Assembly: GCF_023520895.1 (NCBI RefSeq)
Contig: NZ_CP026029.1
Location: 3,038,001 to 3,102,000 of the forward strand
Origin: Paenibacillus sp. PK3_47
GTDB taxonomy: Bacteria > Bacillota > Bacilli > Paenibacillales > Paenibacillaceae
DNA: 64,000 nt
Direction: 5' to 3'
The translations under genes were made by a program, and so were the position numbers. The notes under the pieces are model-generated. The model saw only the letters and a program-made list of their open reading frames with translations, had not been told where the DNA came from and did not search any database. Shown here one piece after another: positions 42,018 to 62,887 of this stretch; position 1 is the first letter of the stretch, and every line of letters starts with the position of its first letter.

Positions 42018-45000
42018 ATGAAGCGGTGTAAAATCATGCTTCTGATTAGCATTGTGTTCATGCTTGCAGCCCCCGCTGCCGCTCACGCTGAAAGGCAAAA
42101 CATAAGATACCAGGCAGAACTTGATTATCCGCCCTATAAATACATACAGAACGGATATCTGACCGGCTTTGATATTGACCTGACGAGCATGATTTTTGAA
42201 AAGCAGGATTATCTGATTCAGTACAGCACCGGCGATTGGGAGAATACGCTCGGGCTGCTGCTTGAAGGAAAGGTTGATACAATCGGCCTGATGGCGGTAA
42301 CAGAGGACAGGAAAAAGAACGCGCTGTTTTCCAAGCCTGTATTCAAAACCTACATATCCGTCTATTCGAGGCAGGCGCTGAAAGAAGAAGTGAAACTAAG
42401 CACATTGCAGAAATATAAGATAGGCGTAGGCAAGGACCAATATTCCGCTTCTGTACTGAGAAACAAGGCGGGAATCTCGGAATACATAGAATATGATACT
42501 GTACCGGACGCGCTCGTGGCACTGCAGCAGGGGGAGATCGATCTGCTGTTCGAGAACCAGGGCGTTGTGGATTACCTCATCGTCGAACGGGGGCTTACAG
42601 GCAATATTGTCAATAAAATGAAAGATTTATATCCGGAGGAGGTGGCCTTCGGGGTCAGTAAATCCTCACCGGAGCTTGTTTCCTACATAAATGCACGAAT
42701 TAACCGGCTGCAGCGCTCCGGCGCTTTTGAAGAGCTGTACCAGCAGTATTTTTTCTCCCATTCCGATTATTACATATCTATGGTTCAGGGCAGGGTTATA
42801 TCCGGCATAGCCGTCGGCTTCTGTATCCTGTTCTTCGGAATCGTCTTCATCCGGATGTACATCAGGCGTTTGCGGCGTACCATTCACTCTGAACAGGAGT
42901 TTTTTGAGGATGTTATAGAACATACCGGGATGATTGTCTGGGCAGTTCAAGGCAACAAAAAAACGGTGCGCTTTAACCAGTATGCCGAAAAAATGACCGG
43001 GCTCAGCGAAAAAGAGGTGCTGGGCAAACCTATTGACGAGCTTCCCGGTCTTGAAGGCAGCGCGGCCTTGTTCAGGGAGCTGCTCACCCGGGCGGTGTAC
43101 AAGGACTATGCGAATGATGTGGAGCTGAAGCTTCCCGATTATTCGCCTGAAGCCCGCTGTTTCGCGATCCGCACCACTCTCATTAAGGGAATGGATCAGC
43201 AGGCTGAAGATATATTCGTTCTGGTGGGACTGGACATCGATGACCGTAAGCAGAACGAACTGAAGCTTCAGCTGAGCTACGAGGAGCTGGAGGCTACTTA
43301 TGAGGAGCTGACGGCAACGGAAGCAGAACTGCAGGAGCAGCTGCATAAAGTCAGTCTCAGTGAGCGCCGTTTCCGGCTGGCTTCCGAGGGCTCGGGGGCA
43401 TATATGTGGGAGCGGGATTGGGTGACCGGCGAATACAAGCTGTCCGAGCGCTGGTATGAGGTGATGGGCTACACCGAAGAGGAGATCAATTCCTTTGAAG
43501 GCGGGGTGCTCAGCATCATTCATCCGGATGACCAGGATTCTGCAAACAAGGCCAGACTGGAGCATCTGAGCGGTCTGACCCCGATTTATGAGACGGAGTA
43601 CCGAATGCGCACCAAAGACAATATCTATATCTGGTTCGAGGTGAGGGGCAAGGCAATCGTTGATCCCAAAGATAATATTCTATTGTTCCTGGGATCCCTT
43701 ATTGATATAAGCAAGCGCAAGCAGACCGAGTTCAAGCTGAATAACAGCTATCAGGAGCTCGAGGCTACATATGAGCAGTTAACGGCAACACAGCAGGAGC
43801 TTGTAGAGCAGTACGACATGCTGCTGGAGAACCAGAAAAATATGCACCGCCTGGCGTATGTGGACTCCCTGAGCAACCTGCCCAACCGGCTCTGTCTCCT
43901 GGAGGCGATGGAGGATTATATCCGGAAGCCGGGCGGACAGGCAGCGCTGATGTTCGTGGATACGGATAATTTCAAATTTATCAATGATACGCTTGGCCAT
44001 AAGTCAGGGGATATCCTGATCCGGCAGGCCAGTGAGCGGCTGCAGTCGCTTGTTCCCGAGGGAGTGATGCTCTCCCGGCTCGGCGGTGATGAATTCGTTA
44101 TTTTTATTAAGGATGCCAAGCAGCGCGATAAGGTGATGGAGTTGGCGGAGGATATTATGCACGCATTCCGTAGATCCTTCCTGATCGGCGAGAGCAAGCT
44201 GTATGTTTCCACAAGTATCGGAATTTCGTTCTATCCGGAAGACGGAGAGACTGCGGAGGAAATTCTGATGAATGCCGACGTGGCGATGTACCGGGCCAAA
44301 GAGGAAGGTAAAAGCACCTATGTCGTGTATGACAAATCGATGCATACGCCATTCAATGAACGGATGACGATCGAAAAGCACCTGCGCAGTGCAATGATCA
44401 ACGATGAGTTCGAGCTGCATTATCAGCCGCAGGTGGACATCCGGACCGGACGAATCTCCGGGTTCGAGGCCTTGATCCGCTGGAACAGCCCGGTCCTGGG
44501 CTTTGTATCGCCGCTGTCCTTTATCAAGGTTGCCGAGGATTCCAGGCTCATTATCTATATTGGGGAATGGGTGCTCAGAGAAGCCTGCAGCTTCATCAAA
44601 AATGTGCAGGAGCTTACGGGCACTCCTTATAAAATATCGGTCAACATTTCTGTAATCCAGCTGCTGCAGGACGATTTCGTAGAAATGGTACTGAACAGCC
44701 TGGAGGAAAGCGGGCTTCCGGCGAACAGCCTGGAGCTGGAAATTACAGAATCCATTTTTATGGAATCCTTTGAGAGTACGGTCAGTAAGCTGGAGTTCCT
44801 TAAGTCACGAGGAATCCGGATTGCGCTGGATGATTTCGGGACAGGCTATTCTTCCTTGAGTTACTTGCAGCAGCTGCCGATTTCCACACTCAAAATGGAT
44901 AAAATCTTCATTGATTCTCTTGCGGACCGGGAATACAGTAAATCCTTCGTTCAGACTATCATTGCACTGGGCCATAATATGGGGCTGGATGTGGTAGCTG

Positions 45001-45140
45001 AGGGAGTGGAGGACAACAGTCAGCTGGCGTTTCTCTCAGAAGCAGGCTGCGACAAGGTTCAGGGGTATTTGATCAGCAAGCCGGTGCCTCAGAAGGGCGT
45101 GCACGAGCTTCTCGGACGGCAGCGGCATTATGGCGTATAA
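42018..45140 (+). CDS. GGDEF-EAL protein with periplasmic solute-binding domain
   Basis: A 1040-residue c-di-GMP enzyme. After the signal (about 1-24) comes an SBP_bac_3 domain (about 25-255; YQAELDYPPYKYIQNGYLTG, FDIDLTSMIFEKQ), a membrane helix (about 258-280), a PAS (290-410), a short coiled coil, a second PAS/PAC (450-575), GGDEF (about 610-770, intact LSRLGGDEFVIF) and EAL (about 785-1035, with GFEALIRW, LEITESIF and DDFGTGYSSLSYL). Both catalytic motifs look intact, so it can in principle make and break c-di-GMP. The binding domain implies an amino acid or similar ligand as input. Spo0A box and Fur box lie upstream. Confidence 0.93.
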   Translation: MKRCKIMLLISIVFMLAAPAAAHAERQNIRYQAELDYPPYKYIQNGYLTGFDIDLTSMIFEKQDYLIQYSTGDWENTLGLLLEGKVDTIGLMAVTEDRKKNALFSKPVFKTYISVYSRQALKEEVKLSTLQKYKIGVGKDQYSASVLRNKAGISEYIEYDTVPDALVALQQGEIDLLFENQGVVDYLIVERGLTGNIVNKMKDLYPEEVAFGVSKSSPELVSYINARINRLQRSGAFEELYQQYFFSHSDYYISMVQGRVISGIAVGFCILFFGIVFIRMYIRRLRRTIHSEQEFFEDVIEHTGMIVWAVQGNKKTVRFNQYAEKMTGLSEKEVLGKPIDELPGLEGSAALFRELLTRAVYKDYANDVELKLPDYSPEARCFAIRTTLIKGMDQQAEDIFVLVGLDIDDRKQNELKLQLSYEELEATYEELTATEAELQEQLHKVSLSERRFRLASEGSGAYMWERDWVTGEYKLSERWYEVMGYTEEEINSFEGGVLSIIHPDDQDSANKARLEHLSGLTPIYETEYRMRTKDNIYIWFEVRGKAIVDPKDNILLFLGSLIDISKRKQTEFKLNNSYQELEATYEQLTATQQELVEQYDMLLENQKNMHRLAYVDSLSNLPNRLCLLEAMEDYIRKPGGQAALMFVDTDNFKFINDTLGHKSGDILIRQASERLQSLVPEGVMLSRLGGDEFVIFIKDAKQRDKVMELAEDIMHAFRRSFLIGESKLYVSTSIGISFYPEDGETAEEILMNADVAMYRAKEEGKSTYVVYDKSMHTPFNERMTIEKHLRSAMINDEFELHYQPQVDIRTGRISGFEALIRWNSPVLGFVSPLSFIKVAEDSRLIIYIGEWVLREACSFIKNVQELTGTPYKISVNISVIQLLQDDFVEMVLNSLEESGLPANSLELEITESIFMESFESTVSKLEFLKSRGIRIALDDFGTGYSSLSYLQQLPISTLKMDKIFIDSLADREYSKSFVQTIIALGHNMGLDVVAEGVEDNSQLAFLSEAGCDKVQGYLISKPVPQKGVHELLGRQRHYGV

Positions 45141-45150
45141 CAGTACATAA

Positions 45151-45187
45151 AAAGCGGGCCCGGACTAATATGTCCGCGGCCCGCTTT
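45151..45187. terminator. Bidirectional terminator between the two GGDEF genes
   Basis: AAAGCGGGCC and GGCCCGCTTT pair, extended by CGGAC/GTCCG, separating two convergent genes. Confidence 0.85.
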
Positions 45188-45189
45188 AA

Positions 45190-46284
45190 TTACATTACGA
45201 CAATTCTGTTCTTGCCGGTATTCTTTGCTTCGTACAAAGCATCATCAGCCTGCTGAAAGATGGAGCTCTTGGTATCTCCCCTTGTAAAATCATGCATTCC
45301 GATACTTACAGTGACGGATTGGCCATCCATTTCAGCCACAGGCATCCCGGATATTCCTGTCAGGATACTCTCCATGATTTTACTTGATTCCTTCAGTGAC
45401 TTTGCTGTAAGAATCACAACAAATTCCTCACCGCCATAGCGTGCGGCAAAGTCATCCGTTCCAATATTCTTCAGCATAACGCCAGCAACCTGCTTAAGCA
45501 CAATATCTCCTACCCAGTGTCCGTAACGGTCATTTACTTTCTTGAAATTATCTATATCCAGCACAGCCAGCTGCATGGGAAAGGGGTTGCTCTGCTGATG
45601 CTCAATCAGCCAGCCCAGATATTCATGGAAGGTTTTGTGATTGTACAAATCCGTGAGCGGATCGATCTTCGACAGACGGTCCATGATAATATTCTGGATC
45701 CGCAGATCCTGCTCCGATTTCAGGGAATTCTCCAGTGACTGCATAAGATCCAGACCTCTCCCGATCACGAGAAACCCGGCAACAGAAGTTCCCGCGAAGA
45801 TAAGAGAGATAATGATGTATTCAATCCGCAGTGAGTAATCATATGCAGAGGTATCCAGAAACAGGATTATGCTGTAGATCAGACATACCGCTGAAGAAGC
45901 CGTCATATAACTTTTTTTGAGATAAATCATGGATACAAGCAGAGGAATCAGCATAATCAACGGCTTGACATGATATTCCGGGCTAAGGTTGGTGATCATC
46001 AGGATAGCGTAGAGATGGCTTGCGACGATAATTGAAAATTCAGAGCAGGAGGGCTTCCACCTGTGGATAGCTTCTAAAGTCAATATCAGGATAAGCGCAA
46101 TGGAATTCGGGATCAGCACATGGAAAATGTAATACTGCCTGCCCGTGAATTGGGCGAGGTGGCCCCACATGGAGGAGGAGACAAATAACTGAGATGCAAG
46201 GTACACAAGCAGAACCATCCAGAATGCATTGAGGAGCAATCGGTTCCAAAAAACCTCACGAGGAGTCGGTGACTGAATATGCAT
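45190..46284 (-). CDS. Membrane diguanylate cyclase (GGDEF)
   Basis: A 364-residue protein with six predicted membrane helices (about 15-190) and a C-terminal GGDEF domain (about 200-364). The active motif is ARYGGEEFVVIL, a functional GGEEF form; the preceding DPLTDLYNHKTFHEYL and DIDNFKKVNDRYGHWVGD are standard. An RxxD inhibitory site is not obvious. It should make c-di-GMP. It is convergent with the GGDEF-EAL gene, so the two form a c-di-GMP island. Its own upstream region carries an exact Spo0A box and a SinR-type half-site. Confidence 0.93.
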   Translation of the reverse strand: MHIQSPTPREVFWNRLLLNAFWMVLLVYLASQLFVSSSMWGHLAQFTGRQYYIFHVLIPNSIALILILTLEAIHRWKPSCSEFSIIVASHLYAILMITNLSPEYHVKPLIMLIPLLVSMIYLKKSYMTASSAVCLIYSIILFLDTSAYDYSLRIEYIIISLIFAGTSVAGFLVIGRGLDLMQSLENSLKSEQDLRIQNIIMDRLSKIDPLTDLYNHKTFHEYLGWLIEHQQSNPFPMQLAVLDIDNFKKVNDRYGHWVGDIVLKQVAGVMLKNIGTDDFAARYGGEEFVVILTAKSLKESSKIMESILTGISGMPVAEMDGQSVTVSIGMHDFTRGDTKSSIFQQADDALYEAKNTGKNRIVVM

Positions 46285-46329: not shown

Positions 46330-46455
46330 ATAGTTCTTTTTTCCTTCACAAATCACATGAGGGGTAAATGTTCGGTTTTTGCGTTTGTTATCTAAGTGTA
46401 TAGCACATATATAGATTATAATATAGTAAAACACGAATTATTATAGATATTTTCA

Positions 46456-46484
46456 TTGACACATTCGTTTGTGTCCGGTAAAAT
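46456..46484 (+). promoter_or_regulatory. Promoter of the riboswitch-flavoprotein unit
   Basis: TTGACA (46456-46461), 17 bases, TAAAAT (46479-46484). This is the best consensus promoter in the window and sits just before the purine aptamer. Confidence 0.88.
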
Positions 46485-46515
46485 TCTTTTTGGCTGATAA
46501 ATAACAGATTAACTG

Positions 46516-46580
46516 TTCGTATATCCTCAATGATAAGGTTTGGGGGTTTCTACAGGGAACCGTAAATTCCTGGCTACGAA
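46516..46580 (+). ncRNA. Purine riboswitch aptamer, guanine-type
   Basis: P1 is TTCGTA (46516-46521)/TACGAA (46575-46580). P2 pairs CCTCAA with the TTTGGGG run, with loop TGATAAGG. J2/3 is the invariant TTTCTAC. P3 pairs CAGGGA with TTCCTG around ACCGTAA. The GG of L2 can pair with the CC of L3, as in the known structure. The specificity base in J3/1 is C, which means guanine/hypoxanthine type, but the base before it is G rather than the common A. Confidence 0.88.
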
Positions 46581-46623
46581 TAGGGTGCATTTTGCATACC
46601 TATAATAGTCCGGGATTTTTTTG
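46564..46623 (+). terminator. Riboswitch terminator using P3 and P1 strands
   Basis: AAATTCCTGGCTA (46564-46576) pairs with TAGTCCGGGATTT at 12 of 13 positions around an inner ATAGG/CCTAT and TGCA/TGCA stem, then TTTT. It shares the 3' strands of P3 and P1 with the aptamer, so aptamer folding should block termination. Confidence 0.8.
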
Positions 46624-46711
46624 TGTTGTACTTACAGAAACCTACAAATACTTGGAAACGGATATCGCCTGTTACCAGAAATAGGCCGACGTTTCTTCCC
46701 AGGAGGAACAA

Positions 46712-62622: not shown

Positions 62623-62706
62623 CCAGTAAAGGGTAAACCTGCTGAAAGGCAGGGGCACAAAGTCTCGGGTCTAATGTAGCAATACTACGACGGCCGGACT
62701 GCCTGG
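62623..62706 (+). ncRNA. Cyclic di-GMP-I (GEMM) riboswitch before sinI
   Basis: P1 pairs CCAG (62623-62626) with CTGG (62703-62706). GGGTAAACC is the conserved 5' core. A six-pair hairpin CCTGCT/GGCAGG has the GAAA tetraloop that docks in the fold. GGGGCACAAAGTC replaces the usual GGGACGCAAAGCC, keeping the CAAAG part. GGGTCTAA and GGCCGGACTGCC complete the pattern. A preceding hairpin, GATCCTT/AAGGATC (62603-62623), touches P1. No terminator follows, so control is likely on translation. Confidence 0.85.
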
Positions 62707-62714
62707 GGACGTGA

Positions 62715-62733
62715 AAATCTTAGGAGGAGATTT
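62715..62733 (+). promoter_or_regulatory. Hairpin displaying the sinI ribosome site
   Basis: AAATCT (62715-62720), loop TAGGAGG, AGATTT (62728-62733). The ribosome site is the seven-base loop of a 6-bp perfect stem, directly after the aptamer. It may be the expression platform. Confidence 0.7.
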
Positions 62734-62734
62734 C

Positions 62735-62887
62735 TTGGATAAGTCCAACCAGGGGGACAACGGAGAACTGCAGACAGCTGAGCTTGATTTGGAATGGGTC
62801 TATTTATTGATGTCGGCAAGAAATGCGGGCATCAAGGCAGATGAGATCCGCCAGTTTTTCAACGAAAAGATGCTGCAGGCGATGTAG
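62735..62887 (+). CDS. sinI: SinI-type anti-repressor
   Basis: A 50-residue protein with the SinI domain: ELDLEWVYLLMSARNAGIKADEIRQFF matches the SinR-binding helical hairpin of B. subtilis SinI (split here only for length, with ELDLEWVYLLMSARNAG then IKADEIRQFF). It would bind SinR and stop it repressing matrix genes. TTG start at 62735, seven bases after GGAGG. Unlike B. subtilis, where sinI and sinR are in tandem, here sinR is convergent. A c-di-GMP-I riboswitch forms its leader. Confidence 0.9.
   Translation: MDKSNQGDNGELQTAELDLEWVYLLMSARNAGIKADEIRQFFNEKMLQAM

Follow-up and report, generated by a model that had tools for sequence, protein, structure and literature searches.

The stretch of DNA analysed here (the window) comprises 64,000 nucleotides of contig NZ_CP026029.1 from Paenibacillus sp. 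PK3_47, and carries on its forward strand a flavoprotein gene preceded by a promoter, a purine-riboswitch aptamer, an intrinsic terminator and a Shine-Dalgarno sequence (Table 1). Upstream of this leader, within 42018-46284, lie two open reading frames in which GGDEF-like sequence was recognised by eye: a solute-binding/PAS/GGDEF/EAL-like frame of 1040 aa on the + strand and a GGDEF-like frame of 364 aa on the - strand.

Table 1. Features of the flavoprotein gene and its leader, in window coordinates
Feature	Position	Strand	Details	Basis
Candidate double PurR box	46433..46468	.	Inverted pair ACGAAT 46433-46438 and ATTCGT 46463-46468, spacer 24, around -35	
Promoter	46456..46484	+	-35 TTGACA 46456-46461, 17 nt, -10 TAAAAT 46479-46484	11/12 consensus
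Purine aptamer, guanine-type	46513..46583	+		RF00167, 71.4 bits; fold of region
Aptamer P1	46513-46521/46575-46583	+		RF00167 and fold
Aptamer P2	46523-46530/46540-46547	+		RF00167 and fold
Aptamer J2-3	46548-46552	+		RF00167 and fold
Aptamer P3	46553-46558/46567-46572	+		RF00167 and fold
J3-1	46573..46574	+	G at A73 position, specificity base C74	RF00167 alignment
Intrinsic terminator	46568..46622	+	Outer stem 46568-46576 with 46606-46615; U7 tract 46616-46622	Folds; kept in relatives; arm covariation
Inner terminator hairpin	46580..46603	+	Takes end of P1 3' strand	Folds
Shine-Dalgarno	46700..46706	+	AGGAGGA	Sequence
Flavoprotein, 478 aa	46712..48148	+	GidA-like	FAD-depend_C (PF21688)

The aptamer can be assigned from its sequence to a known class. 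The purine-riboswitch model RF00167, named among the checks in the original prediction, matches positions 46497-46596 of the + strand over its full length (1-102) and as a three-stem junction, scoring 71.4 bits (gathering score 37; E 1.2e-10). The specificity base had been read as a C preceded by a G, and the alignment bears this out: position 74, which defines the guanine type, is C46574, and position 73 is G46573 rather than the consensus A, a base that is not strictly defining. The ligand-site bases U22 (U46522) and U51 (U46551) are both kept, as is the contact between L2 (GG) and L3 (CC), and neither J2-3 nor J3-1 of the window aptamer holds an insertion relative to the model. In its aptamer sequence, C74, U51, U22 and uninterrupted junctions the leader resembles the guanine-I switches (xpt, pbuG, yxjA) and is probably of that type, although those turn expression off through a terminator apart from the aptamer and have A73, in place of the G73 that is common in Paenibacillus. 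Two other identities were rejected: an adenine riboswitch (pbuE/add) requires U74, and guanine-II and xanthine-II are defined by insertions in J2-3 and J3-1, with U51G in addition for xanthine-II (PMC9295807), whereas here the junctions lack insertions and U51 is intact.

The 5' arm of the terminator consists of the P3 3' strand, J3-1 and the start of the P1 3' strand, and the earlier claim that P3 and P1 give their 3' strands to the terminator is correct. As aptamer and terminator share these strands they are mutually exclusive, which is the layout of an ON switch; no separate antiterminator/terminator pair was found in the window leader, whose single strong hairpin is built on P3/P1. The same platform, with a terminator that invades P3 and P1, gives the Bacillus subtilis pbuE adenine riboswitch (RF00167) its transcriptional ON layout, although pbuE carries U74 and precedes a purine efflux pump, as opposed to C74 and a flavoprotein here. 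In unconstrained, ligand-free equilibrium folds of the nascent transcript, the aptamer has the lowest energy as far as 46610 (-27.0 kcal/mol) and the terminator takes over at 46616 (-32.4 kcal/mol; -32.7 at 46620), so that the terminator fold should prevail if the aptamer is not stabilised by ligand for ~30 nt of transcription, as an ON layout would have it. The modelled structure points to an ON direction, and the window leader is very probably a guanine-type transcriptional ON riboswitch, a judgement that concerns regulation and leaves the role of the enzyme aside. Within the inner hairpin, GGNTGC...GCATACC is kept in most relatives, beyond apparent pairing need.

Both the aptamer and its terminator recur among close relatives. 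When genomes were scanned with the flavoprotein, the best 80 loci (86-96% identity; Paenibacillus, Brevibacillus, Cohnella and Fontibacillus) all proved to have a purine aptamer upstream of the gene, recognised by a strict motif in 46 and by Rfam in the other 34. Eighty leaders were parsed (the window and 79 relatives, with L042 left out), and in 79 of them minimum-free-energy (MFE) folds draw 5-7 of the 7 bases of the P3 3' strand into the terminator, with just 3 of 7 in the remaining one. Terminator arms pair with their own partners at -14.5 kcal/mol, against -12.96 +/- 0.22 when swapped between distinct leaders and -6.2 kcal/mol with shuffled 3' arms; none of 5000 permutations was as good as the own arms, a result that is no formal probability, since the leaders share kinship. 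Terminator and aptamer strand covary. That the aptamer is present in 80 of 80 relatives, with arms that pair beyond shuffled and swapped ones, argues that its association with the gene is not due to chance. The predicted pairing of a guanine-type aptamer and an ON platform before a flavoprotein is thus there to be seen in the sequence, and both features are conserved.

Further afield, a sample of the class contained the aptamer in 9 of 9 scanned loci at 84-89% identity and in 1 of 11 at 75-80%. The latter (L191) belongs to another Bacilli family, in which the aptamer stands on the flavoprotein gene in five of six genomes. Two of these (L216 and L219) have a very stable terminator with a 5' arm composed of the P3 5' strand and L3; it is exclusive with the aptamer and would produce an ON switch by another route. 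Three (L217, L218 and L220) are without a terminator and have a short leader running into the Shine-Dalgarno sequence, with folds that hint at translational control, though they are mutually inconsistent. The aptamer was absent in 40 other Bacilli and Clostridia relatives inspected. Since this protein family occurs widely in Bacillota, and most relatives with 47-80% identity have no aptamer, its basic function need not depend on guanine.

The inverted pair around the -35 element offers a second possible tie to purines. It has two mismatches to ACGAAC-N24-GTTCGT and imperfect cores (CGAAT/ATTCG), with CGAA and TTCG 26 nt apart, a spacing also seen at purE and NCS2; in the PK3_47 genome the purE promoter has one mismatch and that of the NCS2 permease none, and the pair is missing from the xpt, amidohydrolase, PRT and EamA leaders. 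Across 81 flavoprotein promoters, only 24 and 25 are enriched of the spacings from 14 to 35, and pairs with at most two mismatches occur in 62%, versus 3.7% of mononucleotide shuffles. B. subtilis PurR sites are described as an inverted pair of 14-bp boxes, each with CGAA at its centre, set 16/17 bp apart (PMC8789054). Pairs with N24 or N25 place CGAA and TTCG 26 or 27 nt apart, equal to the B. subtilis PurBox geometry, and 46433-46468 has the sequence of a Bacillus-type PurR double box. The likeness to that regulon lies in an inverted CGAA/TTCG pair at this distance at a promoter; the differences are that the window boxes are imperfect and that no such flavoprotein appears among the sites in the part of the regulon description available. 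On balance the flavoprotein promoter is likely to be a PurR site. The box pair is also found in four of six riboswitch-free relatives inspected (L222-L225), and the link to PurR may therefore predate the riboswitch. The original prediction had described the target as not a known purine gene; this is correct, with the addition that the candidate PurR-type boxes tie it to purine regulation.

The protein itself matches FAD-depend_C, GIDA and a pyridine-nucleotide-disulphide-like FAD domain in Pfam, and no NCBIfam equivalog scored above cut-off for it. Its sole solved relative, 3NLC (VP0956), is homologous over residues 149-471 (E 3e-21) and is likewise FAD-dependent, a structure without a known substrate. 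Four cysteines (Cys45, 55, 67 and 71), unchanged in all of 73 close relatives and present in 12-14 of 14 more distant proteins, possibly form a metal or Fe-S site; structure prediction with 17 close relatives gave a mean pLDDT of 50. The gene stands alone in most Bacilli examined. In two Cohnella it sits next to genes for a xanthine/uracil-family permease and a Rieske oxygenase, and in one genome a selenium-dependent xanthine dehydrogenase gene lies directly upstream of a 71% identical relative; such links to purine genes are few and no more than suggestive. A comparison of 28 genomes for co-occurrence with xanthine dehydrogenase (XDH) included one Paenibacillus with the flavoprotein and no XDH-model match. 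A full-text literature search found no paper linking the flavoprotein to a purine riboswitch. Purine-type regulation argues for a purine-related role, most likely that of a redox enzyme that helps to salvage, interconvert or break down purine bases.

The aptamer, the terminator that excludes it, the conservation and covariation of both and the PurR-like boxes are visible in the sequence; the ligand, the direction of control in vivo, the binding of PurR and the role of the enzyme we infer, and a scheme can be proposed. RNA polymerase would transcribe the aptamer before the terminator. Without purine, 46606-46615 would capture the P3 3' strand, J3-1 and the P1 3' strand, and transcription would stop at the U tract. 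Guanine-type aptamers bind hypoxanthine and xanthine too; with guanine, or either of these, P1 and P3 would be locked, the terminator blocked and the flavoprotein mRNA completed. PurR would act at initiation and guanine-dependent read-through at elongation, and since the promoter also appears to be of PurR type, expression would peak with PurR relieved by PRPP and free guanine available. Riboswitch and PurR boxes together would amount to a natural two-input control of one gene.

The window leader is one of seven purine switches in the PK3_47 genome, three of which (purE, xpt and the NCS2 permease) have the OFF layout, their terminators standing apart from the aptamer, and four the ON layout, with a terminator beginning no more than 5 nt from base 73 (flavoprotein, amidohydrolase, PRT and EamA transporter). 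This split suggests that ON is usual for disposal and salvage, and OFF for synthesis and uptake. In other genomes the ON layout recurs before the amidohydrolase, a second amidohydrolase and an MFS transporter; the ON-switch amidohydrolase is named '5'-deoxyadenosine deaminase' by NCBIfam and is also guanine-deaminase-like. The ON platform on a guanine-I type aptamer is conserved across Paenibacillus, Brevibacillus and their allies, and its layout is shared with amidohydrolase and transporter genes, whereby the direction of regulation becomes a clue to function. Guanine-I switches are treated as OFF switches for purine synthesis and uptake in the descriptions consulted, and in Paenibacillus guanine-II is predicted ON and guanine-I OFF (Hamal Dhakal et al. 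2022, PMC9295807). Guanine-II switches resemble the window leader in being guanine-type, from Paenibacillus and predicted ON, and differ in their J2-3 and J3-1 insertions and in standing mostly before PRT genes (PMC9295807). With four of the seven switches of this genome in the ON layout and guanine-II predicted ON, the surprise originally seen in a guanine-type aptamer with an ON layout is reduced. No description of a guanine-I type aptamer with an ON layout was found in the open-access literature, and what appears to be new is the combination of a conserved ON platform on such an aptamer, a flavoprotein as target gene and PurR-like boxes.

Some details of the other ON layouts were observed along the way. 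A G73 guanine-type aptamer and an ON-layout terminator precede a deaminase-like amidohydrolase across Paenibacillus (L004, L227-L241, L243). The guanine-II-like copy in the PK3_47 genome (L006:1501-1740) has a J3-1 insertion and a long ON-layout terminator before its PRT gene, in line with Hamal Dhakal et al. 2022, and at L007 (- strand) the purine aptamer before an EamA-family transporter, a candidate purine exporter, has an enlarged L2 and is followed by an ON-layout terminator.

We propose, tentatively and as somewhat short of an even chance, that the flavoprotein is an undiscovered purine-base enzyme of Bacilli under both PurR (PRPP/ppGpp) and a guanine ON riboswitch, produced chiefly under high PRPP together with free guanine. 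A widespread enzyme family of unknown substrate would thereby become directly testable with purines. It could instead be that the regulation is as proposed and the flavoprotein is no purine enzyme, guanine and PurR only conveying nucleotide status to a function linked to flavins, GTP or one-carbon units. B. subtilis PurR also binds outside purine synthesis, for example at pdxS-pdxT, steT and pycA (PMC8789054), and a widespread protein family without a known substrate would suit such a role; against it, ON layouts elsewhere in the genus stand before deaminase-like amidohydrolases, a PRT and transporters, and the permease, Rieske and XDH neighbours occur in three genomes. Its probability we would also place a little under one half.

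A purine-base enzyme under guanine control must further be weighed against a shifted ligand, namely that the aptamer has moved to xanthine, hypoxanthine, 2'-deoxyguanosine or a modified guanine, with G73 as its mark, and that the flavoprotein acts on that compound. The atypical gene and the G at 73 speak for this, as do related Paenibacillus variants whose ligand is xanthine, or guanine with a new selectivity (PMC9295807), yet the window aptamer has neither a J2-3/J3-1 insertion nor a change at U51, features that distinguish xanthine-II and guanine-II. The G that precedes the specificity C, first taken as an oddity, turns out to be ordinary. A search of 61 Paenibacillus genomes with an aptamer pattern gave 222 hits, of which 142 have G and 80 have A before CTAC; reversed-pattern controls gave 15 and 13 hits, so a few of the 222 will be due to chance. 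G73 is standard in three gene groups (flavoprotein, NCS2 purine permease and amidohydrolase), and the NCS2 switch has it yet is of OFF layout. Being common in the genus and present in an OFF-layout permease switch, G73 is no mark of an altered ligand, and its reading as a sign of a new one was dropped as unneeded. Within the flavoprotein leaders, moreover, base 73 alternates between A and G, tracking its terminator partner: over the 80 leaders it is G in 62, A in 17 and T in one, and is mostly matched by a complementary base in the terminator (in MFE folds G-C 46, G-U 12, A-U 12, U-G 1 and unpaired 9). A shifted ligand is accordingly improbable.

That the leader is an OFF switch, as most characterised guanine-I switches are, or a decayed one with a predicted terminator that is not a functional platform, is very improbable given a single strong hairpin on P3/P1 with no separate antiterminator/terminator pair, terminator arms that covary, and a second, differently built ON terminator in another Bacilli family.

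Another riboswitch match in the window is at 62623-62784, where c-di-GMP-I-GGC (RF03167, 66.3 bits, gathering score 59) lies directly upstream of a short open reading frame that begins with TTG at 62735, runs for ~50 codons and matches Pfam SinI with 36.5 bits (cut-off 31.4); by sequence this would be a c-di-GMP sensor before a SinI-like anti-repressor.
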